A stretch of 34,228 nt of DNA, from contig NZ_VHLG01000023.1 of assembly GCF_006516955.1 (NCBI RefSeq), forward strand, positions 1 through 34,228, read 5' to 3'. The notes under the pieces are model-generated. The model had not been told where the DNA came from. It ran no database searches and saw only the letters and a program-made list of their open reading frames with translations. The DNA is from Martelella alba. Lineage in GTDB: Bacteria > Pseudomonadota > Alphaproteobacteria > Rhizobiales > Rhizobiaceae. Shown piece by piece: positions 4,348-27,398 of the stretch. The translations under genes and the position numbers were made by a program. Each line of letters begins with the position of its first letter. Positions within the stretch are counted from its first letter, which is position 1.

Positions 4348-4360
4348 CCAAGGATATACC

Positions 4361-7817: not shown

Positions 7818-7925
7818 CCCGACATTACTGTTTACCGGCGGCTCCCCTCACCGCCATGCCCTCATGTTGCTCCGGCCATGAGGGCACACTCTCTGCCTGT
7901 TTTGCGAACATCAAGGACCGATACC

Positions 7926-8414
7926 ATGGAAAATCCGTCACTGCTCGTTGCTTCACTTGCCGCTGGCAAGCCTCTGCCGGACACGAAGCCCGGCCAGTGG
8001 AACAATGACAGCCTCAGCGGCGTCTACCATTCCGAACATGCATCAAGCTACTGGAGCAACGGCCAGTTTCCCTCAGGCTTCAGCCTGACGCTGAACATGA
8101 AATTTGCGCCGAACGCGCTGTCCTATAAAGGCGTCAACGACACCAATCCCGACAAGCTATATATCAATGCCTTCGAGGCAACACTCGATGACAAGCCTGC
8201 GCCGATCGCAGGGAATAAACGCTATAATGAGGTGCGCATCCGCCAGCTTGGCCCACGCGAATTTCAGGTGCTCGAACAGCTCGATGGCGACGTGATCGTC
8301 GGTCAGTACTGGGTGTTTTCCGACGACACGAAAGTGCTGATGCGCTGGGGCGTCGGCAAATCACCCGAAAACGCCTCCAAGGCCTTTTTCGAAACATTCA
8401 TCCGTAAGGATTAA
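7926..8414 (+). CDS. Uncharacterised 162-residue protein at the end of the peptide-ABC operon
   Basis: The ATG at 7926 follows AAGGA with normal spacing; the frame is open to 7878, but that part has no initiation signal and overlaps a leader-like region. The protein has no signal peptide or membrane segment. It has several beta-strand-like alternating stretches (GYW/YWSNGQF, FSLTLNMKF, VRIRQLGPREFQVLEQL, IVGQYWVFSDDTKVLMRWG), which suggests a small beta-rich, possibly lipocalin- or barrel-like fold. I do not recognise the family. It sits 108 bp after the last permease gene, in the same direction, and just before the 3' repeat element at 8433, so it is probably the operon's last gene and may bind or modify the same compound. 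That role is inference. Confidence 0.7.
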   Translation: MENPSLLVASLAAGKPLPDTKPGQWNNDSLSGVYHSEHASSYWSNGQFPSGFSLTLNMKFAPNALSYKGVNDTNPDKLYINAFEATLDDKPAPIAGNKRYNEVRIRQLGPREFQVLEQLDGDVIVGQYWVFSDDTKVLMRWGVGKSPENASKAFFETFIRKD

Positions 8415-8432
8415 AGGATCGGGTGAAGAACT

Positions 8433-8448
8433 GGAAACCGGTTTTTCG
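8433..8448 (+). repeat. Dispersed AAACCGGTTT palindromic element, copy 2
   Basis: GGAAACCGGTTTTTCG, identical to the minus-strand reading of 707-722 and again 18 nt beyond a stop codon. With the upstream GAAGAAC it can fold into a hairpin closed by the T-run, so it may end transcription of the ABC operon. The two copies are in inverted orientation and bracket the LysR-hydrolase-ABC module. Confidence 0.6.
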
Positions 8449-8534
8449 ATGACCGCCGCGTTAAAAGAAAAGGCCAGAGTGCCGGGGGATTCAGATTAAA
8501 CGCTCAGCATTCTCAAGGGTGCTGTCGAAAAGAC

Positions 8535-9464
8535 TTAGCAGTCCCTGGTAAAAGCCACGGTGGATTTCGGCCGCTCGTCGACGCTCAGACTGAAGACGTC
8601 CGGCCGGGAATAATGGCCCGTCACGTCGAAATCGTAACGCGCGCCGATCAGGACGGATCGGTCGATCTCGGCCGTGACCAGCCCCTCACCTCCTTGCAAA
8701 GGCCCCGCCAGAACATCGCCCAGAGGCCCGACGATAAGGCTGCCGCCATTGATCAGCGGGCGGGCATCATCCCAGGCCTCGACGGTAATGCCCAGATCCT
8801 TCGGTGACGGCTGATACTGGCAGGAACTGATCAGGAAGCAGCGCCCCTCATGGGCGATATGGCGCATGGAGGCCCGCCAGACATCGCGTTCATCCACGGT
8901 CGGCGCGCACCAGATCTCGACCCCCTTGGCATACATCGCCATCCGCAGCAGCGGCATGTGGTTTTCCCAGCAGATCGCCGCGCCGATACGCCCCGCGCCA
9001 CTTTCGATCACCGGCAGGGTCGATCCATCGCCCTGCCCCCAGATCAACCGTTCGGTTCCGGTCGGCATAAGCTTGCGGTGTTTCGCCACCAGCCCCTTTT
9101 CGGGATCGAAGAACAAGGCGGTGCAATAAAGCGTTGCGCCGGCCCGCTCGATCACGCCGATCACAAGGCTTGCCCCGGTGCGTTCCGACAGGCCCGCCAG
9201 CTCCTCTGTCTCAGCCCCCGGAACGTCGATGGCATTGGCGTGATAGGCGGCGAAGTCCGCGCGCCCCTCCGGCACACGATATCCCAGCCGGGTCCCGAAG
9301 ATCTCGCCCTTCGGGTAGCCGCCCAAAAGCGCCTCGGGCAGAACCACGAGGTCCAGACCGGCACTGCGGATCTCTTCCTCATAGCTCAGGATTTTCGAAA
9401 GCGTTTCGGCCTTGCCAGCATGAGAAGAGCCGATTTGCAATGCGGCGATGCGGGATTTTGTCAT
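8535..9464 (-). CDS. Nitrilase (aromatic/aryl-type branch, nitrile to carboxylate)
   Basis: A 309-residue true nitrilase. The catalytic residues are visible: Glu44 in [13 protein letters not shown], Lys131 in [12 protein letters not shown] and Cys165 in [17 protein letters not shown]. The CWENH-type active site and the PTxxER block separate it from amidases of the superfamily and fit EC 3.5.5.1, hydrolysis of a nitrile directly to acid plus ammonia. The C-terminal blocks [12 protein letters not shown] and [16 protein letters not shown] are also typical. It is divergent from the LysR gene at 9546 with only about 80 bp between starts, so that regulator probably controls it. There is no transporter next to it. 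Nitrile class (aryl, arylaceto or beta-cyano-amino acid) cannot be decided by eye. Confidence 0.92.
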
Positions 9465-9545
9465 GGGGGGGCCAACCTATATTTCGCTTGCGCCAGCTTT
9501 ATATTTCCATAAAAACAAATCAACCGCATCCCAGAACTAACTCAT

Positions 9546-10466
9546 ATGAATGAAAATGATATAAGTTCGATCGACCTGAACCTTCTCAAGGTATTCGAGG
9601 CCATTTACGAGGAAGGCAGCGCCAGCCGCGCGGCGCTGCGTCTGGGCGTGACCCAATCTGCGGCCAGTGCGGCGCTTTCTCGTCTGCGGACCCTCTATCA
9701 GGATCAGCTTTTCGAGCGGCGCGGCCGGGGCCTGGTCCCGACGGCCCGCGCGCACGAGCTAAGCGCAACCGTACGCGAGGCTCTGAGACTGTGCCGGAGC
9801 ACCATGCTATCTACGGCCCCGGGCGAACCGTCTTATCGGGATCGCACCATTTCTCTGGGCCTGTCCGACGATCTGGAAATTGCAATGGGCCGGGCGCTTG
9901 CCGACAGGCTGCGCATCACCGCACCGGGCCTTCGACTGCTGCTGCGCCAGACCAACAGCTACGTTGCGACGGATGCTCTGGCCAGCCGCGCCGTGGATCT
10001 GGTGCTAACTGCGGGCGGATTTGCCTCACGCGCGATTTCGCATCAGACGGTGATGACCGGCGGCTATGCCTGTATTCTGCGCACCATCCCCCGGCATGTT
10101 CGGGCAGAGCTGAGCCTCGACGATTACCTGCAACGCGACCATCTTTTGATCTCTTCGGACGGTTACGCTGGTATCGTCGACGACGCACTGCAAACACTCG
10201 GGCTTCATCGCCATATCGAAGTCTCGACCACCCATTTCGCCGCTGTGCCATTCCTGCTGGGCAGTGAAAATGCCATTGCAACGCTGCCCACCCATGCCGC
10301 CCGGGTGATTGCTCGGCTTGCAGGGTTTGAGCTTATGCCCTGCCCACTGACCCTGCCGACCTACGCGATAGAACTTGGCTGGCGCCCGGAAAGGCTGCGC
10401 GATCCCGCAATTCGCGTGGTCCGCGATGCGGTTCTTCACGTTTTCGATCCGGGATCACAGATCTAG
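9546..10466 (+). CDS. LysR-family regulator divergent from nitrilase
   Basis: A 306-residue LysR protein of the NodD/LinR-like group. The N-terminus reads IDLNLLKVFEAIYEEGSASR, followed by the helix-turn-helix RLGVTQSAASAALSRLR and the LFERRGRGLVPTARA linker typical of this group. The effector domain extends from about residue 95 to the C-terminus. It is transcribed away from the nitrilase gene, and the short shared intergenic region (9465-9545) would hold both promoters. The inducer is unknown. No clear ribosome-binding site precedes the ATG at 9546, but the position of the helix-turn-helix makes this start reasonable. Confidence 0.9.
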   Translation: MNENDISSIDLNLLKVFEAIYEEGSASRAALRLGVTQSAASAALSRLRTLYQDQLFERRGRGLVPTARAHELSATVREALRLCRSTMLSTAPGEPSYRDRTISLGLSDDLEIAMGRALADRLRITAPGLRLLLRQTNSYVATDALASRAVDLVLTAGGFASRAISHQTVMTGGYACILRTIPRHVRAELSLDDYLQRDHLLISSDGYAGIVDDALQTLGLHRHIEVSTTHFAAVPFLLGSENAIATLPTHAARVIARLAGFELMPCPLTLPTYAIELGWRPERLRDPAIRVVRDAVLHVFDPGSQI

Positions 10467-12898: not shown

Positions 12899-12967
12899 GA
12901 ACACTCTGCCTTAGGCTATATGAGCCCAATCCAGTTCGAGAGCATCGCTCTCCAACTGGCCGCGTAA
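12899..12967 (+). pseudogene. IS3-family OrfB C-terminal fragment
   Basis: The plus strand reads EHSALGYMSPIQFESIAL, then QLAA and TAA at 12965-12967. HSALGYMSPIQFE is the conserved C-terminal block of IS3-family OrfB transposases, normally preceded by the DDE catalytic core, which is missing here. It is oriented opposite to the neighbouring orfA relic, so the two are unlikely to be parts of one simply truncated element. Confidence 0.65.
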
Positions 12968-12999
12968 AGCCCCGTTCGCTCTCCACTTTTTCCGGGCAA

Positions 13000-13383
13000 G
13001 TCCAAACCGTCATCAATACCGATAAGGCGCCAACCTATGGCATCGCTATCTCGGAACTGAAGGCCGACGGCAAATGCCCAAAGGAGCTTGTGCACCGGCA
13101 GGTCAAGTATCTGAACAACTTGATAGAGGCCGATCATAGCAAGCTCAAACAGTGGATCAAACCAGTCCGAGATTTCAAGACTTTGAAAGCGCCCTATGCA
13201 ACGATCAGGGGATTTGAAGTTATGCGTGCTCTGCCCAAGGGTCAGGCTGCGATCTTCAACTTAACCGGCGACATCCGTGGCGAGGCATGCATCGTTGAAC
13301 GAGCATTCAGGGTCGGGCCCAGCGCGCTTACCGAGGTTGTGGTAATGCTCGCACAGAATCTCGACACCAACTCGTGTGACTGA
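13000..13383 (+). pseudogene. IS6-family (IS26-like) transposase, C-terminal half
   Basis: The frame beginning near 13000 reads VQTVINTDKAPTYGIAISEL, continues with HRQVKYLNNLIEADH and KLKQWIKPVRDFKTLK, then YATIRGFEVMRALPKGQA, and ends at the TGA at 13381-13383. NTDKAPTY includes the second catalytic Asp region and VKYLNNLIEADHSKLK the catalytic Glu region of IS6-family DDE transposases. The N-terminal zinc-binding region and the first Asp are absent, so it is inactive. The IS6 terminal repeat follows at 13419. The left end of the element has been lost at the junction with the OrfB fragment. Confidence 0.85.
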
Positions 13384-13478: not shown

Positions 13479-13506
13479 TTTGGCACGCCGAGGCGAAAAT
13501 TTGGCA
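13479..13506 (+). promoter_or_regulatory. Direct repeat TTTGGCA x2 at 21-bp spacing, candidate AraC-family operator
   Basis: TTTGGCA occurs at 13479-13485 and 13500-13506, start to start exactly 21 bp, which is two helical turns. It lies about 140 bp before the start of the ribose-type ABC operon. The same TGGCA motif at the same spacing occurs upstream of the arginase-family gene (19435 and 19456). AraC-family proteins commonly bind such in-phase direct repeats, and one is encoded between the two operons at 18226. The repeats are seen; the binding is inferred. Confidence 0.55.
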
Positions 13507-13641
13507 ATATTCGTAGAGCGTGCCGCCCGCCCAACCTTCTTAATACGAACAGATCGACACATCGTTGAATGTGTGGCGATGAACCCGGGGCCGGGCATGA
13601 AAGAGACGTCAGAGAGCCCCGCGACCGTTCGAGGGGTTTGC

Positions 13642-15153
13642 ATGGCGAATGAACCAATCCTGGTGGCTGCGGGTCTCAGCAAGCGATATGGCGGTGTCTC
13701 TGCCCTGAAAGATGCCAGTTTCGAATTGCGCAAAGGCGAAATTCTCGGTCTCTGCGGCGAGAACGGCGCCGGCAAAAGCACCCTGATCAAGATTCTTGGC
13801 GGCATCGTCATTCCCAGTGAGGGAAGTCTGTCAATCGACGGCATTGCGATTACCTTCGGCGAACGCCCGGACCCCGCGCTCCTGTCGATTGTTCACCAGG
13901 AACTGTCCGTCATCCCGCATCTCTCAGTGCTCGACAATATCATGCTGAATCGCAGGAAAACCACGGCAGGCCTTTATCTTCGCGGCCGGCTCGCGCAGGA
14001 GACGAAGGCACTTCTAGCTCTCGTCGGGCTAGACCATGTTGATCACCGGACGCTGGCAGGAACCCTGACACTTGCCGAACAGCAGCTGATTGAAATTGCG
14101 CGCGGTCTGGCAAGCCAGTCGCAGGTGCTGCTGCTTGATGAGCCGACCGCAACACTCTCCGATGCCGAGATCAACAAGGTCTTCGCGGTTCTGCGCCAGT
14201 TGCGAGACCGCGGCACCACGATTGTTATCGTCAGCCATCGCCTGGCGGAGATCTTTGCTCTGACCGACCGTATTACCGTCTTCCGCAATGGCGAACATAT
14301 CTTTACGAAAAACACCGAAGACCTCGATCCACAGTCACTGGTTCGCGCCATGATCGGCCGTGATGTCGAGCATGTAGCCAAGAGTGCGGGACGGGTCAGC
14401 CCGTCCAAAGTCCCAGCCCGTATCGAAGCCCGCACCCTTGGCGTGGCAGGCGGGTTCGGTCCGGTCGACTTTTCGGTTCGCCCGGGTGAAATTCTAGCCA
14501 TTGTCGGCCAGCTTGGCTCGGGTGCAGATACCATTCTTGAAACCATGGCCGGTCTTCACAAGCCATCTCAGGGCGGGCTGAGCCTGAATGGAACGCCTCT
14601 TTCCCTACGCAGTATCGCCGATGCCTATCGCAATGGTATTGCCTATGTCGCAGAAGATCGCGCCGGGCGGGGGGTGTTCCTTACCGCAAGCATCGAGATC
14701 AACATCACCGCGCAAATCCTGAACAAGATCAGCCCGTTCGGCCTGATCTCTTCCCGCCTCAGCAAGAGCCGGGCCCTGCCACTGGCGCGCGCCTTCCAGA
14801 TTGATGAGAAACGGCTTTCGCATCAGGTTTCGACCCTGAGCGGCGGCAACCAGCAGAAGGTGTCGCTGGCAAAAGCAGCGGCAACCGAACCGCAGCTGCT
14901 GCTTCTCAATGAACCGACACGCGGCGTCGATGTCGGCGCACGCGCAGAAATCTATGCCCGACTGCAGGCGCTGGCGAGCGAGGGACTGGCGATCGCCTTC
15001 TACTCGACCGACCTCGAAGAGGTGATGGAACTCGCGGACCGCATCGTCACCGTCTATCGCGGCAGGATCGTGCGCGACCTGCCGCATGACGAGACGGATT
15101 CCGATGAAATTCTGAAAGACATTTTGCACGGCCGACAGGAGACCGTCCAATGA
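13642..15153 (+). CDS. Sugar-type ABC transporter ATPase (RbsA/MglA-like), two ABC domains
   Basis: A 503-residue double-domain ATPase of the carbohydrate-uptake-2 family. Domain 1 has Walker A GENGAGKST, the signature region LTLAEQQLIEIARG and Walker B LLLDEPTATLS. Domain 2 has a degenerate Walker A (GQLGSGADT, lacking the GK[ST] lysine), the signature LSGGNQQKVSLAKA and a Walker B with Asn for Asp (LLLNEPTRGVD). This asymmetry is usual for RbsA-like proteins. The frame is open from the IS6 terminal repeat at 13420, but the ATG at 13642 has GAGGGG upstream and begins the domain correctly. Its stop overlaps the next start (15150-15153). Ligand probably a sugar or other small polar molecule. 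Confidence 0.92.
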   Translation: MANEPILVAAGLSKRYGGVSALKDASFELRKGEILGLCGENGAGKSTLIKILGGIVIPSEGSLSIDGIAITFGERPDPALLSIVHQELSVIPHLSVLDNIMLNRRKTTAGLYLRGRLAQETKALLALVGLDHVDHRTLAGTLTLAEQQLIEIARGLASQSQVLLLDEPTATLSDAEINKVFAVLRQLRDRGTTIVIVSHRLAEIFALTDRITVFRNGEHIFTKNTEDLDPQSLVRAMIGRDVEHVAKSAGRVSPSKVPARIEARTLGVAGGFGPVDFSVRPGEILAIVGQLGSGADTILETMAGLHKPSQGGLSLNGTPLSLRSIADAYRNGIAYVAEDRAGRGVFLTASIEINITAQILNKISPFGLISSRLSKSRALPLARAFQIDEKRLSHQVSTLSGGNQQKVSLAKAAATEPQLLLLNEPTRGVDVGARAEIYARLQALASEGLAIAFYSTDLEEVMELADRIVTVYRGRIVRDLPHDETDSDEILKDILHGRQETVQ

Positions 15154-16133
15154 CATCTGCTTCGAGCACTTCCGTCTTCACCAAAGGCCGCGGCATGACC
15201 GCATTTTCACCGGCAAGAATGCATGCGACCGTCATTCAGCTCATCCTGGTGGCGATGATCATTCTGGCCGCGCTCACCGTGCCGAATTTTGCCTCGGCCA
15301 GCAACATCAGCGCCATTCTTTACACCGGTGCTCCGGTGGGCGTTGTTGCAATCGGCCTGGCCCTCATCACCCTGTCGGGCAATCTGTTTGTCCTGTCTCT
15401 TTCGGCAACGGCAGCCCTGGCATCGATCATCTTCGCCATGCTTTCCTCAGCGAGCCTCCCAGCGGCCATCCTTGCGACCCTTCTCGCAGGCGCGGTGGTT
15501 GGGTCGATCCAGGGCGTGGTCGTCGTATCCTTTCGCAGCAATCCGATCATCACCTCGATTGCAGCGGCGTCACTGATCAGCGCGATTGCTCAGTATCTTT
15601 CCAGCGGCCGGACCGTACTGATTGATGCCGATACCGGCTGGCTCGGCAATGGCGCGCTTGTCTCCGGCCTGCCCTATCAGGCACTGATTTTTGTCGTTCT
15701 TGCCTTGATCCTTGAATTCATCATCGAACGGTCCCGCACCGGCAGAGAAGTCAGGCTGACAGGCATGAACAAGGCAGCAGCAGCACTCGCGGGGATCCGC
15801 ACGTCACGGGCTGCAATGCTTGCCTATCTCATCGCCGGCACGGCAGCTGCTGCTGCAGGCGTGATGATTGCAGCGCAGGCAGGTGCTGGCAATCTGCGCG
15901 TCGGTCAGGATCTCGATTTCAGCGCCATTGCCGCCGTCCTCATTGGTGGCGTGGGCATCAAGGGCGGGCGCGGCCGGGTGCTGGATGCCGCCGTTGGCGC
16001 CATTTTTGTCGCCGTTCTTTCCAACATCCTGCTGGTCAACGGCTTCTCCTATGAAGTTCAGCTCATGGTCAAGGGCCTTGCGGTCATCGGTTCGGTCATG
16101 CTTGGCGCTGCGCTGAGCCGCGAACGGAACTGA
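15150..16133 (+). CDS. Sugar-type ABC transporter permease (RbsC-like), first copy
   Basis: A 327-residue integral membrane protein of the BPD_transp_2 family with about eight to ten hydrophobic segments. Typical RbsC-family blocks are VAIGLALITLSGN (where sugar permeases often have TGGIDLS-like sequence), GREVRLTGMNKAAAALAGI in the cytoplasmic coupling loop, and AAVLIGGVGIKGGRGRV near the C-terminus. AGGAG precedes the ATG, which overlaps the ATPase stop. A second, non-identical permease follows, so the channel is a heterodimer, in contrast to the homodimeric RbsC. Confidence 0.9.
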   Translation: MTSASSTSVFTKGRGMTAFSPARMHATVIQLILVAMIILAALTVPNFASASNISAILYTGAPVGVVAIGLALITLSGNLFVLSLSATAALASIIFAMLSSASLPAAILATLLAGAVVGSIQGVVVVSFRSNPIITSIAAASLISAIAQYLSSGRTVLIDADTGWLGNGALVSGLPYQALIFVVLALILEFIIERSRTGREVRLTGMNKAAAALAGIRTSRAAMLAYLIAGTAAAAAGVMIAAQAGAGNLRVGQDLDFSAIAAVLIGGVGIKGGRGRVLDAAVGAIFVAVLSNILLVNGFSYEVQLMVKGLAVIGSVMLGAALSRERN

Positions 16134-16158
16134 TCGAAGCCACGAAAGGTTTTAAAGC

Positions 16159-17121
16159 GTGACACGACCCCTCTCCTTTTATCTCCGCCTGGCACTTCTG
16201 CCTGCTCTGGTCATCATCTTCAGTGTCATGACCTCGGGTTTTCTCTCGATCGGCAACATCTATGCCATCGGCCAGACCTTTGCTGTTGTCGCACCCGTGG
16301 CCCTTGCAATAGGTCTGACCATGATTGCCGGCGAGCTCGATCTAAGCGTTGGCGCCATGGTGGCGCTTGCCGGCCTCATCATGGTCAAGTTCGGCGCGGA
16401 TTACGCCGTGCTCGGCATCCTGGCCGCTGTCCTTTTCGGTGCGCTTGTTGGCGTCTTGAATGCTTGGCTGACCTTGCGGCTCAAGGTCTCGTCTCTGGTC
16501 ACGACGCTCGGCATCATGATCGTCCTGCAGGGCGCCTCTGTCTGGCTTGAAGGCGGCAAGACAGCGATTTTCGATCATCTCGAAATGACGGATTTCGTCG
16601 GCCTCACGGTGTTGGGCATTTTCTCGCCCTGGAGCATCAGCGCACTTGTTCTGGGCGCCGTCCTGTTCGTCGTCCTGTCCTTCACCAGACTTGGTCGTGA
16701 CATTTATGCCGCCGGCAGCGACCGCAAGGCCGCCCTGATGAGCGGGACCCGGATCCGCCCGGCCCTGATCACGGTCTTTGTCTGCGCTGGCGTTTTCGCC
16801 GCCATCGATGGCGTGCTGATGGCCATCAGCCTCGGCCGTGCGTCCTCCCAGTTCGGTGGAAGTCTTCTCATCCAGTCTGTCACCGCAGCCATTCTTGGTG
16901 GCGTCGCACTGTCGGGCGGGGTCGGCAAGGTCTCCGGAATCCTTCTCGGTGCACTGATCCTGTCCGTTCTTAGCAATGGCCTGAGCTATATCGGCGCCGA
17001 CAGTTCAACAATCCTGCTCGCCAATGGCGGGATCCTGCTCATCGTCGTTCTTTTCGAGAGCGCGCTGACAGAACGTTTCCTTCGCTCTTTCGGTCAATCA
17101 ATCCAAACCATCAAACATTAA
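16159..17121 (+). CDS. Sugar-type ABC transporter permease (RbsC-like), second copy
   Basis: A 320-residue BPD_transp_2 permease with a GTG start at 16159 preceded by AAAGG. It contains GLTMIAGELDLSVGAMVAL, the hallmark of the family (the position equivalent to TGGIDLSVG), the coupling loop GRDIYAAGSDRKAALMSG and, late in the protein, AAILGGVALSGGVGKVSG. It is closer to the canonical RbsC pattern than the preceding permease. It lies 25 bp after that gene and 11 bp before the binding-protein gene, so all four genes are one operon. Confidence 0.92.
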   Translation: MTRPLSFYLRLALLPALVIIFSVMTSGFLSIGNIYAIGQTFAVVAPVALAIGLTMIAGELDLSVGAMVALAGLIMVKFGADYAVLGILAAVLFGALVGVLNAWLTLRLKVSSLVTTLGIMIVLQGASVWLEGGKTAIFDHLEMTDFVGLTVLGIFSPWSISALVLGAVLFVVLSFTRLGRDIYAAGSDRKAALMSGTRIRPALITVFVCAGVFAAIDGVLMAISLGRASSQFGGSLLIQSVTAAILGGVALSGGVGKVSGILLGALILSVLSNGLSYIGADSSTILLANGGILLIVVLFESALTERFLRSFGQSIQTIKH

Positions 17122-17132
17122 AGGGGAATTTC

Positions 17133-18134
17133 ATGCTTGACCTCAATCCGCGTTCCTTTCTGAAATCTCTGTTGCGCGGGGCCATGCCTCTCGTCATTGC
17201 CACGGGTGCACTGGCCAGCACGGCTCTCGCCGATGATGCCGCCGGCAAGAAAGTCATCTTCCTCGGCGCCGATGACATCTGCGAATACTGCGCTGCCTAT
17301 AATGATGCGCTGCGCCTCTATGCCAAGGATGCCGATCTTGATCTCGAAGTCGTCACCAACAAGTTTGATGCCGCCCAGCAGGCGACCCAGATCACCCAGG
17401 CCATTGCCAAGAAGCCTGATCTGATCCTGCTCTGGACCATCGACGGCACGGCGCTTTTTCCCTCCATGCGCAAGATCGGCCAGGCCGGAATTCCACTGCT
17501 CCTGACCGACGTTCAGCCCGATGCTGCACATGATGACCTCTGGATCTCCTACAGCGGCGCCAATTATGAAGGCGAAGGCCGAGAAGCCGCAGACCTTATG
17601 CTCGAAACCTTCAAGGCGAAGGGCCTCGGCGAGGAAGGCGACGTCATCATGATCACCGGCATTGTCGGCCAGGCTCAGACCATGTCACGCTACAAGGGCT
17701 TTTCTGAGCGCCTCGCCGAAATCGCCCCCGGCATCAATATTGTCGCGCAGCAACCCGGCAACTGGGATACGGGCACCGCGATGGATGCCGCATCGGGCCT
17801 GCTGACAAAATATGGCAGCACAATCAAGGGCATTTATTCCGATGAGGATGTCATGATGAAGGGTGTCGTCGCCGCCGCCGATCGTGCTGGTGTCGATGTC
17901 ACCAAACTCGCCATGGTTTCCGTTGGCTGCGAACCGGCCGGTGTCGAGCTGCTGAAACAGGGCAAGCTTGATGCAACCCTTGGCCAGGCCCCTGCCGATG
18001 AGGCACGCTATGCCATCGACAGCATTGTGAATTACTTCAACGGAGCGAAGCTCGAAAAAAGCGTCTACACGCCCATGCCGATCGCCCGCAAGGCCAATGG
18101 CGGCGCCGAGTGCAAGCCCTGGGATCAGTTCTGA
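17133..18134 (+). CDS. Periplasmic substrate-binding protein of the ribose-type ABC transporter
   Basis: A 333-residue protein of the Peripla_BP_4 (RbsB-like) fold. A signal peptide is present: basic N-terminus (FLKSLLRGAMPLVIATGALA) with cleavage probably after ALA near residue 33. The mature protein begins with KKVIFLGADDICEYCAAYND, followed by the typical QATQITQAIAKKPDLILLW and GREAADLMLE. The two close cysteines in CEYC plus two further cysteines (VGCEPAG, AECKPWDQF) are unusual for a periplasmic sugar-binding protein and could form disulfides. The ATG at 17133 has AGGGGAA upstream. It is the last gene of the operon, followed by a strong terminator. The ligand is not identifiable. Confidence 0.9.
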   Translation: MLDLNPRSFLKSLLRGAMPLVIATGALASTALADDAAGKKVIFLGADDICEYCAAYNDALRLYAKDADLDLEVVTNKFDAAQQATQITQAIAKKPDLILLWTIDGTALFPSMRKIGQAGIPLLLTDVQPDAAHDDLWISYSGANYEGEGREAADLMLETFKAKGLGEEGDVIMITGIVGQAQTMSRYKGFSERLAEIAPGINIVAQQPGNWDTGTAMDAASGLLTKYGSTIKGIYSDEDVMMKGVVAAADRAGVDVTKLAMVSVGCEPAGVELLKQGKLDATLGQAPADEARYAIDSIVNYFNGAKLEKSVYTPMPIARKANGGAECKPWDQF

Positions 18135-18156
18135 TCCTGCGACCGTCCTAAATGAT

Positions 18157-18188
18157 AAGAGGCGCTCCGTTTGTCCGGAGCGCCTCTT
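18157..18188. terminator. Strong bidirectional intrinsic terminator
   Basis: A perfect 13-base stem, AAGAGGCGCTCCG and CGGAGCGCCTCTT, around a six-base loop, lies 22 bp past the binding-protein stop codon. A-rich sequence precedes it and the gene on the other strand (AraC type, ending at 18226) converges on it, so it can serve both directions. Confidence 0.85.
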
Positions 18189-18225
18189 GCCGTTGAAGCC
18201 TGTCCGGACTGCGACAATCCGGCGT

Positions 18226-19206
18226 TCAGAGCAGGGATTTGGGCGTTACGCCGAATTCTTTCTTGAAGGAGCGCCCAAAGTGGGAAAGGTCGTTGAAACC
18301 GAAATCCAGTGCGGCATCGGTGATGCTGCGGACCCGGCGTTCGGAAATGGCAGAATAGGCCGCCTGCAACCGACGTGTCTGCAACCATCCCATCGGCGTC
18401 GTGCCAGTTTCAGCAAACAGCCGGCACAGGGTTCTGACGGAAACATTCTGTTCCCTTGCAACCTGCTGCAGTGTCAACGAACTGTCTGCCATATGCGCGT
18501 TCAGATAACGTTTGATCTGCTCGATCTTTGAGCGGCTAGCCGCACCGTCGGCAGCAGTGTCGCCGGTTCCCTGCCTGACGGCAGCTGCGATCATGTCCAG
18601 CATGGATGGGCTGAGCTGCAGCAGTACATCACTTTCAACCGACGTTGCCAGATTGTGAGCTTCGCCAAGAAGGGTGCCGAGCAACTTGCCAAAGGGCGAA
18701 CCACCGGACAGGATCACACCGCCCAGCCGGTCAACATCAACCAGCCGCGAAGATGCGATCGGCCGCGGGATCCGCATCAAGATCGAGCGATACGCCTGAT
18801 CATAACTATAGCTGTAGGGCCTGCCGGAATCATAAAGCAGAATGTCGCCAGCGCGATGCATGACCGAATTGCCGTTCTGCTCAAACCGGCCTTCGCCGGA
18901 AACCATAAAGGAAACGAAAAAATCGTCACGCGGACCACGTCGGACATCGAAGGCTTTGCGTTCATAAGTAATGCCGGTGGATGAAACATCGCTGATTTCC
19001 GTGGTTCCGAATTCCTGCGTCCTGAGACTGGCATTGAAGCCGGAAACCGAGCTGACACGGCCACTGCAAGGCGCATAGGTGCGGTAGACCAGCTCATGCC
19101 AATAGTCGAAGCGCTCACCGGCGCTGATATCCCTCGTCGAAAATTGCTTTTCCATGACGCCTGCCTGTCTGGCTTCAACCTCTGACATATGTGACGCAAG
19201 TTTCAT
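18226..19206 (-). CDS. AraC-family transcriptional regulator
   Basis: A 326-residue protein with an AraC_binding_2-like (FeaR-type) N-terminal domain and a C-terminal AraC helix-turn-helix pair. Residues from about 228 read KIEQIKRYLNAHMADSSL and LTLQQVAREQNVSVRTLCRL (first helix-turn-helix), then DAALDFGFNDLSHFGRSFKK and FGVTPKSLL (second). It lies between the ribose-type ABC operon (convergent, separated by a terminator) and the arginase/EthD genes (divergent), and the promoters of both contain TGGCA direct repeats 21 bp apart, so it is the leading candidate regulator of both. The start is uncertain: ATGs at 19206, 19188 and 19155 all lack a strong ribosome-binding site. FeaR-like relatives activate amine or aromatic catabolism; the effector here is unknown. 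Confidence 0.88.
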   Translation of the reverse strand: MKLASHMSEVEARQAGVMEKQFSTRDISAGERFDYWHELVYRTYAPCSGRVSSVSGFNASLRTQEFGTTEISDVSSTGITYERKAFDVRRGPRDDFFVSFMVSGEGRFEQNGNSVMHRAGDILLYDSGRPYSYSYDQAYRSILMRIPRPIASSRLVDVDRLGGVILSGGSPFGKLLGTLLGEAHNLATSVESDVLLQLSPSMLDMIAAAVRQGTGDTAADGAASRSKIEQIKRYLNAHMADSSLTLQQVAREQNVSVRTLCRLFAETGTTPMGWLQTRRLQAAYSAISERRVRSITDAALDFGFNDLSHFGRSFKKEFGVTPKSLL

Positions 19207-19237
19207 GCCAAAACACTACGGTTTATTGAGATTGGCA
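19206..19237. promoter_or_regulatory. TGCCAA/TTGGCA inverted repeat next to the AraC start, possible autoregulatory site
   Basis: TGCCAA at 19206-19211 and TTGGCA at 19232-19237 are inverted copies of the TGGCA core seen in the two proposed AraC operators. If the AraC protein starts at 19188 or 19155, this lies in its own promoter or leader. The motif is short and the evidence weak. Confidence 0.3.
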
Positions 19238-19588
19238 TACCTTAACGCTAGCAGGAGCGACGGCCTGCCTAGCTGCCTGACAAATTTCGTCGAATTCGGC
19301 GGCAACTGGAAGGTTAGTCTCTGCCGCGCCCCCTCCAGGAAGAGTAAGCAGAAGAGATTGACAACCCAGATGATCAAAGTTGAGGCAATATGGCGCGGGG
19401 TCAGTCGGCGTCCGTTCGCGCGAGAGGAGAGGCGATCTGGCACGAAACGGCGACAATCTGGCAACTGAGCACAAATTCGATGCCGCGCTTGCCGCTATCC
19501 TGCCTTCTCATTGCTGTTCGACGCTAACCGGGAACCGTTATCAAGACTATCCGGCTTGGCCGACAAGACTGAGGTGAAGGACCAACCA
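19238..19588. other. Intergenic region between AraC gene and arginase-family gene
   Basis: About 350 bp without a credible gene; the short open frames here have no initiation signals and no recognisable product. It contains the 21-bp-spaced repeat at 19435-19463 and must hold the promoter of the arginase-family gene. A GAAGGA ribosome-binding site lies just before the ATG at 19589. Confidence 0.6.
19435..19463 (+). promoter_or_regulatory. Direct repeat ATCTGGCA x2 at 21-bp spacing, candidate AraC-family operator
   Basis: ATCTGGCA is found at 19435-19442 and 19456-19463, exactly 21 bp start to start, about 125 bp before the arginase-family ATG. It shares TGGCA and the 21-bp phase with the pair at 13479/13500 before the ABC operon. 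Combined consensus: [TA]T[TC]TGGCA-like, with the first two bases variable. Confidence 0.6.
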
Positions 19589-20470
19589 ATGACCGAAGCC
19601 AGTTCAAAGACCCTGCGCCTGCTCATGCCCCAATGGCAGGGCGGCACACTACCCGCCTATCATTTCGGCGCCCAGATGCTGAACTTTCTGGCGCCCGTCA
19701 CCACAGGCGAAACAATCACCGTTCCGGTCGCAGCACCGTCCGGGGACGACCTTCCGGTTGAAGACGGTATTGTTGCCCGTACTGCCCTTTTGCAGCAGGC
19801 CGACGCCGCGGCCACCATTCTTTCCGAACAGTCCCCGGACCGTATCGTCGTCCTCGGCGGCGATTGCCTCGTCGACCTTGCCCCTTTCGCCTATCTGAGC
19901 GAACGACATGGCGACGATCTGGCGATCCTCTGGGTCGATTCCCATCCAGATATCCTGACGCCGGACCATTTTTCACACGCCCATGCCATGGTGCTCGGCA
20001 ATCTCCTCGGCAAAGGCGACAATGACTTTTCGTCCCGGGTCAAACACCCCGTCAAACCGCAGAATGTCATGTATGCTGGCCTTTACGACATGATGCCGCT
20101 GGAATGGAATTTCGTTCGGGGGAACGGCATGGCAATGGCCACGCCCGCAGAGCTTGCCGATTCAAGCGAGAAGGTGCTCGACTGGTTTCGATCGACCGGC
20201 GCCAGCCGTCTGGCCATCCATCTCGACCTCGATGTTCTGGATCCCAAATTCTTCCGCTCGCTCTATTTCAGCAACCCCTTGGATGCGCCGGGCGCATTCG
20301 GAGCAACACCGGAAGGCCGGATGACCATGGACCAGGTCACGCGCCTGCTGAATGATGTCGCCGCAGTTGCCGATATTGTCGGCCTCGGGATCGCGGAACA
20401 TCTTCCCTGGGACGCAATCGCATTGAAAAACATGCTGGAAAGCCTGCCTCTTATCGGCCAGACCGCCTGA
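19589..20470 (+). CDS. Arginase/agmatinase-family (ureohydrolase) protein with GGDC variant
   Basis: A 293-residue ureohydrolase-fold protein. Manganese-site motifs are mostly intact: WVDSHPD corresponds to the DxHxD motif and HLDLDVLDP to the DxDxxDP motif. The first motif is GGDCLVD where classical arginases have GGDHS, so the first metal-ligand His is Cys. Family members with GGDC exist, so this may define a subgroup with altered metal site or substrate instead of a dead enzyme. A HAHAM segment (residues near 132) may supply another ligand. The frame is open to 19511, but the ATG at 19589 has GAAGGA upstream. It probably hydrolyses a guanidino or formimidoyl compound; the substrate is not determined. 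It is followed by an EthD-domain gene. Confidence 0.85.
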   Translation: MTEASSKTLRLLMPQWQGGTLPAYHFGAQMLNFLAPVTTGETITVPVAAPSGDDLPVEDGIVARTALLQQADAAATILSEQSPDRIVVLGGDCLVDLAPFAYLSERHGDDLAILWVDSHPDILTPDHFSHAHAMVLGNLLGKGDNDFSSRVKHPVKPQNVMYAGLYDMMPLEWNFVRGNGMAMATPAELADSSEKVLDWFRSTGASRLAIHLDLDVLDPKFFRSLYFSNPLDAPGAFGATPEGRMTMDQVTRLLNDVAAVADIVGLGIAEHLPWDAIALKNMLESLPLIGQTA

Positions 20471-20546: not shown

Positions 20547-20894
20547 ATGTACACTGTGGCATTCATCATGAAGCGCAAACCCGGCATGAGTCTGGAAGAG
20601 TTTCTGGCCTATTACAAAGACCGTCACGGCCCGCGCATGGTCGAGCTGATCAAGGATGAAGGCCTGATCTCCTACGATCATTTTCCCGTCGATGTCGAAA
20701 TAACGGATGGCCGTTACGTCGCAAAGGATGGGCCGGCCTATGATGCAATTTCTGTCTATACGTTCGAAACTCAGGAACAGGCCGAGAAATGCTGGGCTTT
20801 TCCGGACGTGATCACGGACAGCGAAGCCTTCATCGATTTTGAGACAATGGTTACGCTGCCGGCAGCACGTCGCAAGGTCTTCCCTCTCAGCTGA
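20547..20894 (+). CDS. EthD-domain protein (dimeric alpha-beta barrel)
   Basis: A 115-residue protein with the EthD family pattern: an N-terminal beta-strand YTVAFIMKRKPGMSLEEFLA, then YYKDRHGPRMVELI, where the YxxxHGP motif is the family hallmark, and a C-terminal DFETMVTLPAARRKVF. EthD proteins are small dimeric ferredoxin-like-fold proteins found in catabolic clusters; some are enzymes or helpers of oxygenases. GGAGAACATA precedes the ATG, a good ribosome-binding site. It lies 76 bp after the arginase-family gene in the same direction and is probably cotranscribed. Its exact role is unknown. Confidence 0.85.
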   Translation: MYTVAFIMKRKPGMSLEEFLAYYKDRHGPRMVELIKDEGLISYDHFPVDVEITDGRYVAKDGPAYDAISVYTFETQEQAEKCWAFPDVITDSEAFIDFETMVTLPAARRKVFPLS

Positions 20895-20907: not shown

Positions 20908-20943
20908 GAACAGATAGCCCGCCTGCCGGCGGGCCATCTGTTC
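20908..20943. terminator. Long hairpin between EthD gene and broken MFS gene, likely bidirectional terminator
   Basis: GAACAGAT-A-GCCCGCC pairs with GGCGGGC-C-ATCTGTTC around the loop TGCC: 15 base pairs with one A/C mismatch. It starts 13 bp past the EthD stop and lies between two convergent genes. There is no T-run on either side. Confidence 0.6.
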
Positions 20944-20951
20944 GAGTGATC

Positions 20952-21703
20952 TCAGGGAAGCCTTATTGCGAGTGTTCTCGCGATACCGAAAAGGCCTGTG
21001 CCAGCTAGGGCGATCAACAAGCCGGAAAACACATAGAATGCTGTCTGGAAATTGGTTGCGGCGATCAGGAAGCCCATGGCGATCGCGGGAAAGGCGTTGG
21101 ATAAATAGCCGACAATGTAAAAATTGGAGATTAGCTTTGCGCGCCTGTGTGTTGCGGCGGCAGCGCTTGCCAAGCCGAGCGCACCGACAAATACAGCTCC
21201 ATAGACCATGGCCGCTAACGCCCATCAGCACCAGCAGCAAAGTGCCGTGCGTCTCGCCGGTTGTAAAGACAAGCAGGGGCTGAACGATGATCATACCCCA
21301 AAGTCCACCGGTAACTGCGTGGCGCGATCGCAGACGTCCACACAGCACCTGACCAACACCGGCAAAGACCTGGAAAATGGCGGACACCATGCCCGCCAGG
21401 CTGGCACCGGACAGCCCGTAGAGCCTTGCCCCCCAGATCCGCGCCGATCGCCATAACCATTGATCCTGACGTCCACGCCGTCACAACGGAAAGGCACGCC
21501 AGGATGAACAGCGGGTAGACCGTATTGACCTCATCCGTATTAGACACTTTCATCGCCAATGCTTAGCCACGGGCGCGATGATTGGGCCAGGATAAAGCGA
21601 GAAGCCTAGCGCCCACCACCATGGCGATCAATGCTATCAGAACAAAGGGAAACACGGTCGGCGCGAAATCCGTCGAAAGCGAAAAAGAGCCATCGGAACT
21701 GGA
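20952..21703 (-). pseudogene. MFS transporter, N-terminal half missing and frameshifted
   Basis: Three minus-strand frames must be joined to recover the sequence. From high to low coordinates: a TM6-like segment (FPFVLIALIAMVVGARLLAL) in the frame ending at 21563; MKVSNTDEVNTVYPLFILAC through MVMAIGADLGG in a second; then, past a run of six C at about 21429-21434, ARLYGLSGASLAGMVSAIF through LLVLMGVS in a third; and, after another shift near 21210, MVYGAVFVGALGLAS to the TGA at 20952. This is TM6 to TM12 of a 12-segment MFS pump. TM1-5 are gone; the TetR start at 21713 lies where they should be. Three frame breaks plus the deletion argue for real decay, although a C-run miscall could explain one of them. 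Confidence 0.75.
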
Positions 21704-21712
21704 TAGGAACGG

Positions 21713-22340
21713 ATGCCCAAAGGACCAAATACCCGCGGACCAAGCCGCGAAAAACGGACCCGTCAGGGCATTATTGCCGCAGCCCTGTCTCAGTTCACTC
21801 AAAATGGTTTTGCCGCAACGACGATGGAAGATATCTCACAGGAATGCAGTGGCGCCAAAGGCACGCTCTACCGCTATTTCGCGCGCAAGGAGGACCTGTT
21901 CCTCGCCATCGTCACTAATGTTGTCAGCGGCATCCTGAGAGAGGCACGGCAGATCCCGCAGGCGGAAGGCGAGACCGTGAAGGCCTATATCAAAAGCACC
22001 TTGCTGCCAGTCATGTATCTGACAGAGGCTTCGGGGCGTGGTGACATCGCGAGACTAGTGCTGACAGAAAGCCGTGCCTTTCCGGATCTGGCCCCCCCTC
22101 TATCGCGAATAAGTCTATCGACCATTCCGCGCGCATTTCGAGGCAGTTTTGCTTCAGGCGGCCGCGGCAAGAGAAATTCCGGAGGACGCGAATGCGAAAG
22201 AACTTTGCTATCTTCTCATTGCGCCCTTGTGGCTAGGGCTGGTCAACAATGGCATACTGGATCGTGACAACATGGTAGACGCCGGTGAACTGCTCAGCAG
22301 GCAGGTTGACCTCGTATTTGGCGTTTTAAACGCACCATAG
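21713..22340 (+). pseudogene. TetR-family regulator, frameshifted with in-frame stop
   Basis: The N-terminal TetR DNA-binding domain is intact: REKRTRQGIIAAALSQF, then NGFAATTMEDISQECSGAKG and TLYRYFARKEDLFLAI. The frame is lost in a run of six C near 22091-22096 (LAPP). Dropping one C restores LAPLYRE, but a TAA then follows before VYRPFRAHFEAVLLQ and the normal C-terminal REIPEDANAKELCYLL to GVLNAP, ending at 22340. So both a 1-nt insertion and a nonsense codon are needed, which makes it a pseudogene. A truncated product of about 130 residues with the DNA-binding domain could still be made. TAGGA precedes the ATG. It is divergent from, and presumably once repressed, the broken MFS gene. Confidence 0.78.
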
Positions 22341-22407: not shown

Positions 22408-23787
22408 TCATTGGAAATCAGAAAGCGGACGGCAGAGGCCTGCGCTTCTGATCGCGGCCTCAAGCGCACGCGCCGTTGCGAGAAGCAATGCATCGCTGCC
22501 CTGACGTCCGACGAGCTGAACAGAGAGAGGCAAGCCGTTATCCATGCCGCAAGGCAAGGCTATGACGGGCCCGCCCAGGACATTGGCAAAGCCGTTCGGC
22601 CCCACATGTGACCAATGGCCGAAATTTGACCTGCCATTGCGTTCCACAAGCCTTGGCGCAGCCCCAATCGTCGTCGGCAGAAAAAGAATGTCACCGGGAC
22701 CGAGCAAGTTGTGGAACTCGGCGACAAGGGTGGCCTGACGCCGCTTGGCCAGAAGGTAGTCATCACCGGAAACCAGTGCGCCAAGGTGCAATTTGAGCCG
22801 TGCGTCCTGGCCGTAGAGCTCCGCCTGGGTGGCAAGGCGAGCGCGATGATAGGACCAGCTTTCGCAGGTGGCGATCACGGCTGCGATGGCATCCAGTTCC
22901 TCCAGCATGGGAAAACGGGCATCGCTGCGATGCAGGCCAATCATCTGCAACAAGGGCTCGACCTGATCGACCGCCGCTTTCTGTGCGCCAGACAGACGCT
23001 CGTCAAAGTCACGCAGACGCAGATAGCGGGCATTTTTCGGCAGGGATGACAAACCGTCAAAGAAACGACCGGCAACCTTCCCGGGCGAGACGATTGCGTC
23101 AAGCAGGAGGGCAACATCCTCCACCGTCCGCGCCATGGGGCCGACGGTGTCCATGCTTTCCGAAAGCGGCATCACGCCCTGTCGGCTGACCAAGTCGCGC
23201 GACGGCATCATTCCGACAATACCGTTGAAGGCTGCCGGCACGCGGATACTGCCCCCGGTGTCGGTGCCAAGAGCAGCAAAAACCTCGCGCGAGGCGACAG
23301 CAACCGCCGATCCTGAAGACGACCCACCCGGCGTATGTGCTACATTCCAGGGATTGCGGGCGTTCGGTGCGAGCGATTTCTCATCATGCGCACCGATGGC
23401 AAATTCATTCGTCGCCACCTTGCCCAGAAACACCGCCCCCTGCTCGCGCAGTCCGGCAACAGCGGTGGCATCACGCGCGGCAATACGATCGGCATATAGC
23501 CTAGAATGGCCCGTGCCGCGCATGCCAGCAACATCGATAATATCCTTGAAGGCGAGTGGGACGCCCGTGAGCGGCGTACATGTCTCCCGACGGCTCCGGC
23601 GCGCATCTGCCGCGTGGGCCATTTCCAATGCCGCATCCGGCATCAAGGTGATGAAGGCGGAAAGCTTCGGCTCCGAGGCCTCACAGCGTTTCAGGCAGGC
23701 TTCGGTCAATTCAACGGCAGAAACCGAACCTTCGGCCAGCGCGGTCGCTGCCTTCGCCAGCGTGTCTATCTCGGAAAGGATCGTCAT
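22408..23787 (-). CDS. Amidase-signature family enzyme
   Basis: A 459-residue amidase-signature enzyme (GatA/AtzE/amidase type), hydrolysing an amide to acid plus ammonia or amine. The Ser-cisSer-Lys triad is visible: Lys81 in LAFKD, Ser156 in TPGGSSSGSAVAVAS and Ser180 in LGTDTGGSIRVPAA, with the 24-residue Ser-Ser interval expected of the family. There is no signal peptide, so it is cytoplasmic. GAGGGG lies ten bases before the ATG at 23787. It is the last gene of the minus-strand cluster, 25 bp after a small 72-residue gene and downstream of a nitrilase and an ABC importer. It may take an amide from the same substrate as the nitrilase, or an amide side product of it. Exact substrate unknown. 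Confidence 0.92.
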   Translation of the reverse strand: MTILSEIDTLAKAATALAEGSVSAVELTEACLKRCEASEPKLSAFITLMPDAALEMAHAADARRSRRETCTPLTGVPLAFKDIIDVAGMRGTGHSRLYADRIAARDATAVAGLREQGAVFLGKVATNEFAIGAHDEKSLAPNARNPWNVAHTPGGSSSGSAVAVASREVFAALGTDTGGSIRVPAAFNGIVGMMPSRDLVSRQGVMPLSESMDTVGPMARTVEDVALLLDAIVSPGKVAGRFFDGLSSLPKNARYLRLRDFDERLSGAQKAAVDQVEPLLQMIGLHRSDARFPMLEELDAIAAVIATCESWSYHRARLATQAELYGQDARLKLHLGALVSGDDYLLAKRRQATLVAEFHNLLGPGDILFLPTTIGAAPRLVERNGRSNFGHWSHVGPNGFANVLGGPVIALPCGMDNGLPLSVQLVGRQGSDALLLATARALEAAIRSAGLCRPLSDFQ

Positions 23788-23812
23788 GACGGCATGCCCC
23801 TCACCTATGACG

Positions 23813-24031
23813 CTATTCAGCGACCGGGTTCATAGCGAAGTCGCCGCCGTCCGCAGCGGCTCGTCGGCGGATCAAGCGGATTTTTTCATCCATGTAGCCG
23901 AGTGCGGCTGAAAGCGCAGCACGATCTTGCGAATCCAGCCCGGTTGCACCAGCCTGCAGCAGCCGTTCGTCATAAGCGGAAGCCAACGTTTCTTGCTGTG
24001 GTGCCGTTGAGATCATCGGATCATTCTTCAT
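23813..24031 (-). CDS. Small 72-residue protein between nitrilase and amidase genes
   Basis: The ATG at 24031 follows AAAAGG at seven bases; the frame is open further upstream but those residues overlap the end of the nitrilase gene and have no signal. The protein is largely helical in appearance: LASAYDERLLQAGATGL, then SQDRAALSAALGYMDEKIRL and a basic IRRRAAADGG, ending NPVAE. There is no membrane segment. I do not recognise it. Its size and position directly before an amidase-signature gene recall small partner subunits such as AtzG or GatC, so a stabilising subunit of the amidase is a reasonable guess, unproven. It lies 91 bp after the nitrilase and 25 bp before the amidase. Confidence 0.6.
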   Translation of the reverse strand: MKNDPMISTAPQQETLASAYDERLLQAGATGLDSQDRAALSAALGYMDEKIRLIRRRAAADGGDFAMNPVAE

Positions 24032-24122
24032 CGGAAGGCCTTTTATTCCCTCAAGAGAGGACGCGAAAAGCGGCCCGCTCTGGCGCCCATAGTCCAGAGC
24101 GGCGCGCAGACGCAGACTGTGA

Positions 24123-25019
24123 TCAATGCGCGGCGGCGGGCGCCAGCGGATCGGGATCGAAAGGATGGCGGATTTTTGAGAAATCAATATCCGCGATCAG
24201 CAGACCATCCTCATCATGCGCAAGCGGCTCCACCACATCCTGACCATCCGGTCCGAAAATATGGGTCGCACCGCCGCCAAGGGTGATCTTGGCTGCCCGC
24301 TCCGGTGTATCGGAAAATTCCTTCTGGATACCGGCGCCCAGAACCTGGGTCGTCGCCAGTACAAACATGCCGCCTTCGGCCGCATAGGCGCTGGTCGCAT
24401 TCATGTTGACCTTGGCCCCCATCGTGATGACCTGTGGCATGAGGCCCAGCGCCGGCCAGGCCGCCACATGGATTTCTTCCGTGAGGCCGAACATGATGTG
24501 GCGAAGCATTGGCCGTTTGTGCTCCGAGCAGTTAAGTGCACCAAGCGTGCCGATATTGGTGGCAACAACCTTCAGGTTGGTGTCCGGATCGCCCGGCGCG
24601 AAGAACGTACCCTCAGCACCCGAAGGCTTCAGCTTGCGGCGCGCAAGGACGGTCTTGCCGTTCTCATCTATGATCCACTGAGCCATATAGATGCGGCCCT
24701 GCGCATCCCGTTCGCTCAGCCCGAGAACAACCTCAATGCCGTATTCAGCTGCTGCAGCGGCAATCTTTTCATGTTCCGGACCGCCGAGACGTGCAGAATT
24801 CTCGATGAAATTGCGGCGATACTCTGTCTGCCACGCCTCATCTCCCAGCCACAGGAAAACCGGATAGCCCGGCAGCCAGATTTCAGGGAATGCAATGAGC
24901 TTGACGCCCTTCCGAGCGGCCTCTTCCATCAGCGCAATTGTCTTATCAGTTGTTGCGGCCAAATCGAACCAGACCGGCTCCGACTGGACTGCCGCGACCT
25001 TGACGATACGCTCATTCAT
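24123..25019 (-). CDS. Nitrilase (aliphatic-type branch) with CSEH active site
   Basis: A 298-residue nitrilase. The triad is Glu46 (FPEIWLPGYPVFLW), Lys129 (RRKLKPSGAEG) and Cys164 (GALNCSEHKRPMLR). The GYPxFxW block and EH after the nucleophile are typical of true nitrilases, but most have CWEH; here the residue after Cys is Ser. The superfamily-wide C-terminal block GGATHIFGPDGQDV is present. AAGGAG precedes the ATG at 25019; the longer open frame to 25247 runs through the tail of the binding-protein gene and is discarded. It lies 161 bp after the ABC binding-protein gene in the same orientation, suggesting that the imported compound or its product is a nitrile or amide. A nitrile-to-acid or nitrile-to-amide reaction is possible; the Ser variant may affect that balance. 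Confidence 0.9.
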   Translation of the reverse strand: MNERIVKVAAVQSEPVWFDLAATTDKTIALMEEAARKGVKLIAFPEIWLPGYPVFLWLGDEAWQTEYRRNFIENSARLGGPEHEKIAAAAAEYGIEVVLGLSERDAQGRIYMAQWIIDENGKTVLARRKLKPSGAEGTFFAPGDPDTNLKVVATNIGTLGALNCSEHKRPMLRHIMFGLTEEIHVAAWPALGLMPQVITMGAKVNMNATSAYAAEGGMFVLATTQVLGAGIQKEFSDTPERAAKITLGGGATHIFGPDGQDVVEPLAHDEDGLLIADIDFSKIRHPFDPDPLAPAAAH

Positions 25020-25180
25020 GGGTGTCTCCTTGGGGTACTGACCGAGAATCACGATAGGCGCCTGCCTAAGCCGTGGAAATGCAATCGGATCTGATTGTGT
25101 GGATGACTTTCGTGAAGAGGGGCAGACAACGAAGACTGCCCGCCCTGCTCCGCTGTATGTCCTGTCAGGGGGACGGGCAC

Positions 25181-26230: not shown

Positions 26231-26262
26231 GTTATTGCCCTCTCTGGTGGAACAGCATCAGC

Positions 26263-27366: not shown

Positions 27367-27398
27367 GATGCTTGGTCTTTCCTGTGGTGAGGCCTGAA

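Follow-up and report, generated by a model that had tools for sequence, protein, structure and literature searches.

Tandem TGGC repeats 21 bp apart suggest one AraC-type regulon for a CUT2-type importer and an arginase-like/EthD gene pair in Martelella alba

A contig of the alphaproteobacterium Martelella alba (NZ_VHLG01000023.1, assembly GCF_006516955.1) carries an ATP-binding cassette (ABC) importer operon and an arginase-like/EthD gene pair, each preceded by two direct repeats 21 base pairs (bp) apart, with an AraC-family regulator gene between them. The window, that is, the whole stretch of DNA that was analyzed, comprises 34,228 nucleotides. On its forward strand, the importer operon encodes an ATPase with two ABC_tran stretches (13642-15153), two BPD_transp_2 permeases (15150-16133 and 16159-17121), and a periplasmic substrate-binding protein of the Peripla_BP_4 family (17133-18134). 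The regulator gene lies on the reverse strand (18226-19206), and its product is FeaR-like, with AraC_binding_2 (PF14525) and HTH_18 domains. Then follow, again on the forward strand, an arginase-family protein with a GGDC motif, related to zmARG (PDB 6KSY) (19589-20470), and an EthD-domain protein with a predicted dimeric alpha-beta barrel fold (20547-20894). Profile matches bear out this gene content, which an original prediction had guessed from the letters and their open reading frames. The ATPase start was set at ATG 13642 and not at the mechanical TTG 13420, because an upstream ATG is lost and the frame is shifted in Martelella sp. HB161492 (L025), the closest relative located. The regulator may start further downstream than the annotated 19206.

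The original prediction had pointed to TTTGGCA at 13479 and 13500, to ATCTGGCA at 19435 and 19456, with 21 bp between the members of each pair, and to an inverted TGCCAA/TTGGCA pair at the start of the AraC gene. These coordinates are exact in the sequence, and the inverted pair lies at 19206-19211 and 19232-19237. Alignment of the two sites shows that what they have in common exceeds TGGCA and amounts to a 26-bp operator with 20 fixed bases, TGGCACGnnnnGGCGAnAATnTGGCA. Operator 1 (13481-13519, forward strand), 5' of the importer operon, consists of the half-sites TGGCA-N6-GGCGAAA (13481-13498) and TGGCA-N6-GTAGAGC (13502-13519). Operator 2 (19438-19476, forward strand), 5' of the arginase/EthD pair, has TGGCA-N6-GGCGACA and TGGCA-N6-CACAAAT, also 21 bp apart. 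The inverted pair (19206-19237) is kept in L025 and is a possible autoregulatory site.

In the window, TGGCA-N16-TGGCA has exactly two places without mismatch, among 68 with at most two mismatches, and 68 is in turn more than chance would give (a mean of 46 in shuffles). Across the 55 contigs (4,986,907 bases) of the M. alba genome, TGGCACGnnnnGGCGAnAATnTGGCA has five matches with at most three mismatches: the two known sites with none, and three with three mismatches, one of which, on contig C11, falls within a mechanical open frame. The motif read backwards has no match in the same genome. As the motif was derived from the two sites themselves, the weight lies on the otherwise empty genome and on conservation elsewhere. 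With no further match at two mismatches or fewer in this genome, the motif gives no sign of a wider regulon there.

Conservation was followed in 80 GTDB loci anchored on the arginase gene, the best 80 of 409 confirmed, to which three plasmid loci found via the binding protein or EthD were added, giving 83 loci. In L025, the products are 94% (arginase), 97-98% (importer), 97% (EthD), and 96% (regulator) identical to those of the window. The core of operator 2 is identical there in 26 of 26 bases, and that of operator 1 keeps 25 of 26; upstream of about 13457 most of the sequence is unalignable to L025, and the shared part starts about 24 bp 5' of operator 1. The original prediction had called for conservation of the repeats in orthologous loci. 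This was found for the full sites in L025, and elsewhere for the core and the spacing only, a result that leaves the prediction standing. The putative operator is fully conserved in the close relative, and what distant loci preserve of it is the core.

The spacing was scanned in the 300 bp 5' of the arginase gene, for the 26 of the 83 loci having an AraC homologue within 3 kb of that gene. Of these 26 promoters, 13 (10 of 23 without near-duplicates) have a TGGC pair spaced by exactly 21 bp, and none of the remaining spacings between 8 and 44 bp is seen in more than 3. When the sequences were shuffled by dinucleotides, the 21-bp pair came up in a mean of 0.21 and a maximum of 3 of the 23 promoters. 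The pair also goes with the presence of an AraC gene within 3.5 kb, being found in 14 of the 27 loci with such a gene and in 1 of the 56 without.

In the wider family, the half-site is approximately TGGCn-N6-rCAAAGC. A position weight matrix (PWM) was built from 18 sites, with TGGCn-N6 and a box containing CAAAGC taken twice, 21 bp apart. In the loci, 37 places score at least 20 and 60 score at least 15, vs. 0 and 6, respectively, in reversed sequences. By this measure, 14 loci with a nearby AraC gene have a site vs. two without, L033 (Paraburkholderia BL25I1N1) and L043, in both of which the AraC gene lies at the distal end of the importer genes. Since 17 of the 18 training sites score at least 20, the held-out places carry the weight. 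They are found 5' of arginase genes (L043 at 9905, L033 at 9904, L049 at 9611), between the regulator and the EamA-arginase genes of Pseudomonas gingeri (L040 at 8871), and right after the regulator gene, about 1.1 kb 5' of the arginase gene (L046 at 8875, L048 at 8895). Others stand 5' of GMC oxidoreductase genes (L040 at 16841, L046 at 3037) or of unclassified genes similar in size to these (L048 at 16633, L047 at 12896). A weaker site (21.4) precedes an NCS1 permease gene in Thioclava. Both window operators are training members; operator 1 scores 26.0 and operator 2 only 15.4.

The layout downstream of the repeats is also regular. Of 31 non-redundant sites, 10 have TAnnnT with an offset of 37 from the second TGGC, as compared with at most 2 at other offsets and at most 4 for the best offset in shuffled sequences. 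In the window, the candidate -10 boxes at this distance are CTTAAT (13539-13544, forward strand), which has four of the six TATAAT bases and is not of the TAnnnT form, and TATCCT (19496-19501, forward strand). The 5' ends of the transcripts are predicted near 13551 and 19508. A -35 at the usual spacer length would overlap the last bases of the second half-site; in both window promoters, a good -35 is missing at that place. The presence of a -10-like box at a constant distance from the repeats suggests an activator site of the AraC/XylS type. Both promoters have the tandem direct repeats of about 21 bp, the downstream one near -35, that characterize AraC/XylS-type operators; XylS-type sites reach into the -35. 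The likeness to XylS/Pm-type operators extends to the pair of direct-repeat half-sites, their 21-bp period, and the two boxes in each, the XylS site being given as TGCA-N6-GGNTA-N6-TGCA-N6-GGNTA with repeats at 21 bp (PMC4514859). The boxes of the window, in contrast, are TGGC and approximately CAAAGC, and the regulator, the effector, and the target genes are different.

The regulator belongs to the AraC/XylS family, with HTH_18 (1.6e-20) and AraC_binding_2 (1.8e-18) both above cut-off. Its best NCBIfam model is FeaR (NF007243), a regulator of aromatic amine catabolism, which covers residues 29-323 with 129.5 bits; this is below the curated 199 bits of the FeaR equivalog. No binding site of FeaR itself was found in listings of open-licence PMC text. 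The regulator occurs in 2 of the 13 genomes of the genus, its own included.

Two fused ABC domains, two BPD_transp_2 permeases, and a Peripla_BP_4 protein make the importer a CUT2-type system. In gene set and folds it resembles the sugar importers AraFGH, RbsABC, and AlsABC, and its top NCBIfam models are AraG, AraH, and a D-allose binding protein. It differs from these and other named sugar importers in that its equivalog scores are below cut-off among the matches listed (for the ATPase, the best 25 of 189). Importer orthologues are likely rare: in an even sampling of 385 genomes of the class and 398 of the phylum, with at most five candidates scored per genome, only the genome of M. alba itself had one at E <= 1e-70. 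The structure model of the binding protein has a mean predicted local distance difference test score (pLDDT) of 80.9. Its residue E238 is invariant in seven aligned sequences and stands, in the sequence alignment, where five of five displayed sugar-binding proteins have Asn, a residue that contacts the sugar in ribose-binding protein. From this alignment and the contacts in ribose-binding protein, E238 offers a hint of a cationic ligand, which would fit a guanidino compound.

For the arginase-like family, we know of one characterized member, zmARG, the dimeric GGDC arginase of Zymomonas mobilis. The window protein matches zmARG over nearly its full length (residues 6-291 of 293, E 1.5e-93), with the same GGDCL and DSHPD motifs and with HLDLDVLDP vs. 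HIDLDVLDP. Among 84 aligned relatives, the metal ligand C93 is found in 83, and D117, H119, D121, D213, and D215 in all 84. With GGDC in place of GGDH and the other ligands kept, the protein belongs, by its sequence, with the Zymomonas GGDC arginase. zmARG has GGDC instead of GGDH and is reported to hydrolyze arginine with Mn, and in the passages available no importer, EthD, or AraC context is described for it (PMC6988801). The window protein scores 46 bits with the arginase equivalog TIGR01229, vs. a curated cut-off of 227.6, and is also far below the agmatinase cut-off. Therefore, arginine is not to be assumed as its substrate. One scan of 84,980 species genomes confirmed the 409 arginase-like relatives, and the gene is present in 10 of the 297 genomes of the family, its own included. 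The genes of the regulon are accessory in their hosts.

The EthD protein is placed in its family by PF07110 (38.2 bits, gathering threshold 22) and has no sequence match among solved structures. Its predicted fold matches CTB10 and 4-methylmuconolactone methylisomerase (Foldseek E of 6e-07 and 3e-06), with 15-20% identity in those matches, a comparison at the level of the fold. Among the matches listed, the importer, arginase, and EthD proteins reach no NCBIfam cut-off from which a substrate could be read.

The link between importer and arginase is supported independently of the operator, by loci that were reached through the arginase and through plasmids. In Thioclava sp. GXIMD2076 and Thioclava 'Guangxiensis', the arginase, ATPase, two permease, and substrate-binding protein genes form one run of overlapping or close genes, with AraC and EthD genes divergent. 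Rhizobium lusitanum has the order ATPase-permease-permease-binding protein-arginase with a divergent AraC gene, and Vibrio xiamenensis has the same five genes in the same order, as one apparent operon. In Burkholderia sp. 4M9327F10, the order EthD-porin-binding protein-ATPase-permease-permease-arginase stands next to a divergent AraC gene. A plasmid search via the binding protein returned four records, of which three hold the arginase; in the fourth, from Salipiger, the binding protein is accompanied at that place by a single permease only. The operator accompanies several of these clusters. Training sites precede the importer of R. lusitanum (PWM 34.2) and the gene run of Thioclava (31.3). 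The porin-importer genes of Burkholderia and Paraburkholderia are preceded by an operator-like pair (19.2 and 19.5) with TACATT at offset 37, and the arginase by another (28.0 and 25.4), in which the second TGGC is TGAC in L033; this two-promoter plan is the same as that of the window. No good site was seen between the AraC and EthD genes of L043. Between its importer and its intact arginase gene, L033 contains the pieces of a second copy of the arginase and a fragment of a binding protein (8252-9891).

From these observations, we consider it highly likely that the locus is a two-operon catabolic regulon made up of the AraC regulator, the importer operon, and the arginase-like/EthD pair. The single AraC regulon of the original prediction is supported by the conservation of the operator, or of its core with the 21-bp spacing, by the association of the repeats with a nearby AraC gene, by the -10-like box at a fixed distance downstream, and by the gene orders and operator-like sites of relatives. 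Its view that a shared motif in equal phase marks a real operator likewise agrees with the two zero-mismatch sites in the genome and with conservation elsewhere. The proposal that the importer and an arginase-fold enzyme serve one pathway gains from the single apparent operons of Thioclava, R. lusitanum, and V. xiamenensis and from the paired operator-like sites of Burkholderia and Paraburkholderia; the two very probably act in one uptake-and-breakdown pathway. The AraC/XylS-family protein encoded at 18226-19206 on the reverse strand would bind, probably as a dimer, to the two tandem half-sites. Since the downstream half-site reaches into the -35 region and its TGGC lies 37 bp ahead of the -10 box, the bound regulator would, in the presence of the effector, recruit RNA polymerase to these weak promoters by class II activation. 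One operator would drive the four genes of the CUT2 importer and the other the arginase-like/EthD pair. The importer would take up a small polar solute, the metal-dependent GGDC enzyme would hydrolyze a C-N bond of this solute, guanidino or related, and a product may then be transformed by the EthD protein.

Other readings have to be weighed against this one. That the repeats are a functionless chance resemblance has a negligible probability. The word TGGCA is short, and the window has many pairs of it when mismatches are allowed, but the otherwise empty genome, the conservation in L025, the exact 21-bp spacing, the PWM scores vs. reversed sequences, and the association with AraC genes all speak for function, and chance origin is rejected, being already contradicted by conservation across genera. 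Repression by the regulator at these sites, in place of activation, is unlikely. A protein over the -35 could block polymerase. Nevertheless, the downstream half-site runs into a poor -35 and the -10 stands at a fixed offset of 37, which is the layout of activator-dependent AraC/XylS promoters. About as improbable is a regulon in which the importer and the arginase/EthD pair belong to different pathways that answer one signal. It would account for the 75 of 80 arginase-anchored loci that show no importer and for the several loci with EthD and arginase alone, but it sits poorly with the apparent operons of Thioclava, R. lusitanum, and Vibrio and with the arginase in three of the four plasmid records. 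Slightly less probable still is a shared regulon under another regulator, either an AraC paralogue or a nearby TetR or LysR protein. The genome has three further AraC_binding_2 loci, one of whose products is 36% identical to the window regulator, and TetR and LysR genes lie within the window. However, near those three loci, in stretches of 12-15 kb to which the PWM scan was confined, no place scores above 12, and their TGGC pairs at 21 bp score at most 3.5. Moreover, the 21-bp TGGC pair tracks a nearby AraC gene across the 83 loci, and XylS and MekR sites also repeat at 21 bp (PMC4514859).

A number of observations weigh against the two-operon regulon as we describe it. Outside Martelella, the full 26-bp motif is not shared: the best match in nine relatives at the family level misses 5 of 20 bases, and the best among the 80 loci, L025 aside, misses 4. 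The second half-sites of the window, with GTAGAGC and CACAAAT, fit the second box of the family poorly. In 13 of the 26 AraC-adjacent loci, the 300-bp stretch scanned is without a TGGC pair at 21 bp; some of these have a site 5' of another gene, and in others none was found. The distant AraC proteins are only about 24-45% identical over long tblastn segments and so are putative orthologues, and the regulator of L033 spans two reading frames. In R. lusitanum, EthD sits by a second sugar importer and a GH3 gene; the Vibrio contig has neither AraC nor EthD within 11 kb; and no site above threshold was found 5' of the importer in P. gingeri. Among the 80 arginase-anchored loci, the importer is found in 5, EthD in 10, and both in 4; with the three plasmid loci, the counts become 8, 13, and 7 of 83, and these co-occurrence statistics ignore the relatedness of the loci and include three that were found through the importer. 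Finally, the substrate of the pathway is a guess.

The surroundings of these genes hold further uptake and hydrolysis functions. A fragment of an IS6/IS240-type transposase (12922-13374; DDE_Tnp_IS240, 4e-19) lies 5' of operator 1. Downstream of EthD (20908-22267), a 161-residue reverse frame without Pfam match, which by eye resembles part of a decayed membrane transporter, is followed by the TetR gene. The flanks (2731-10463 and 22411-30291) carry further uptake and amide-hydrolysis genes, namely an SBP_bac_5/oligo_HPY-type ABC importer, two CN_hydrolase genes, an amidase, an ABC importer (TOBE_2 ATPase, BPD_transp_1), and LysR genes.

Related gene sets were also seen in relatives. In Thioclava (L105:1-5189), the NCS1 permease gene with its operator-like site lies beside nitrile hydratase and amidase genes and adjoins the EthD-AraC-arginase-importer cluster. 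A nitrile or cyanogenic-glycoside substrate, considered from these genes and from the GH3 gene of R. lusitanum, was dropped; identity between the window amidase and that of Thioclava is only about 40%, over 225 residues. In L040, L046, L047, L048, and L055 (Pseudomonas and a Paucimonas metagenome-assembled genome), the same operator type is found next to AraC paralogues. L040 is the fullest of these, with two GMC oxidoreductases, an OYE, a quinone-type dehydrogenase, an MFS transporter, and a Phenol_MetA_deg channel encoded around arginase, EamA, and EthD genes; the others are partial.

The regulation is of a known kind, and no description of the regulon itself or of its substrate was found in the literature searched, which was open-licence PMC text. 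We tentatively suggest, with well under even confidence, that the genes form an accessory catabolic module of alpha-, beta-, and gammaproteobacteria, in which an AraC/XylS-type regulator with a TGGC/CAAAGC tandem operator would control a CUT2 importer whose sugar pocket is refitted for a cationic ligand (Glu 238 for Asn) and which would feed a GGDC hydrolase and an EthD enzyme, with the effect that a guanidino- or amino-bearing sugar- or polyol-like compound would be imported and opened. If this is true, GGDC arginases would be a catabolic family of their own and not arginine arginases. This arginase-like family now has a regulator, a predicted operator, and an importer in physical linkage to work from, and the substrate of the pathway can therefore be sought with growth, ligand-binding, and induction tests. 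In relatives, the operator suggests additional candidate genes of the pathway, namely the GMC oxidoreductases of L040 and L046, the EamA transporter of L040, and the NCS1 permease of Thioclava.

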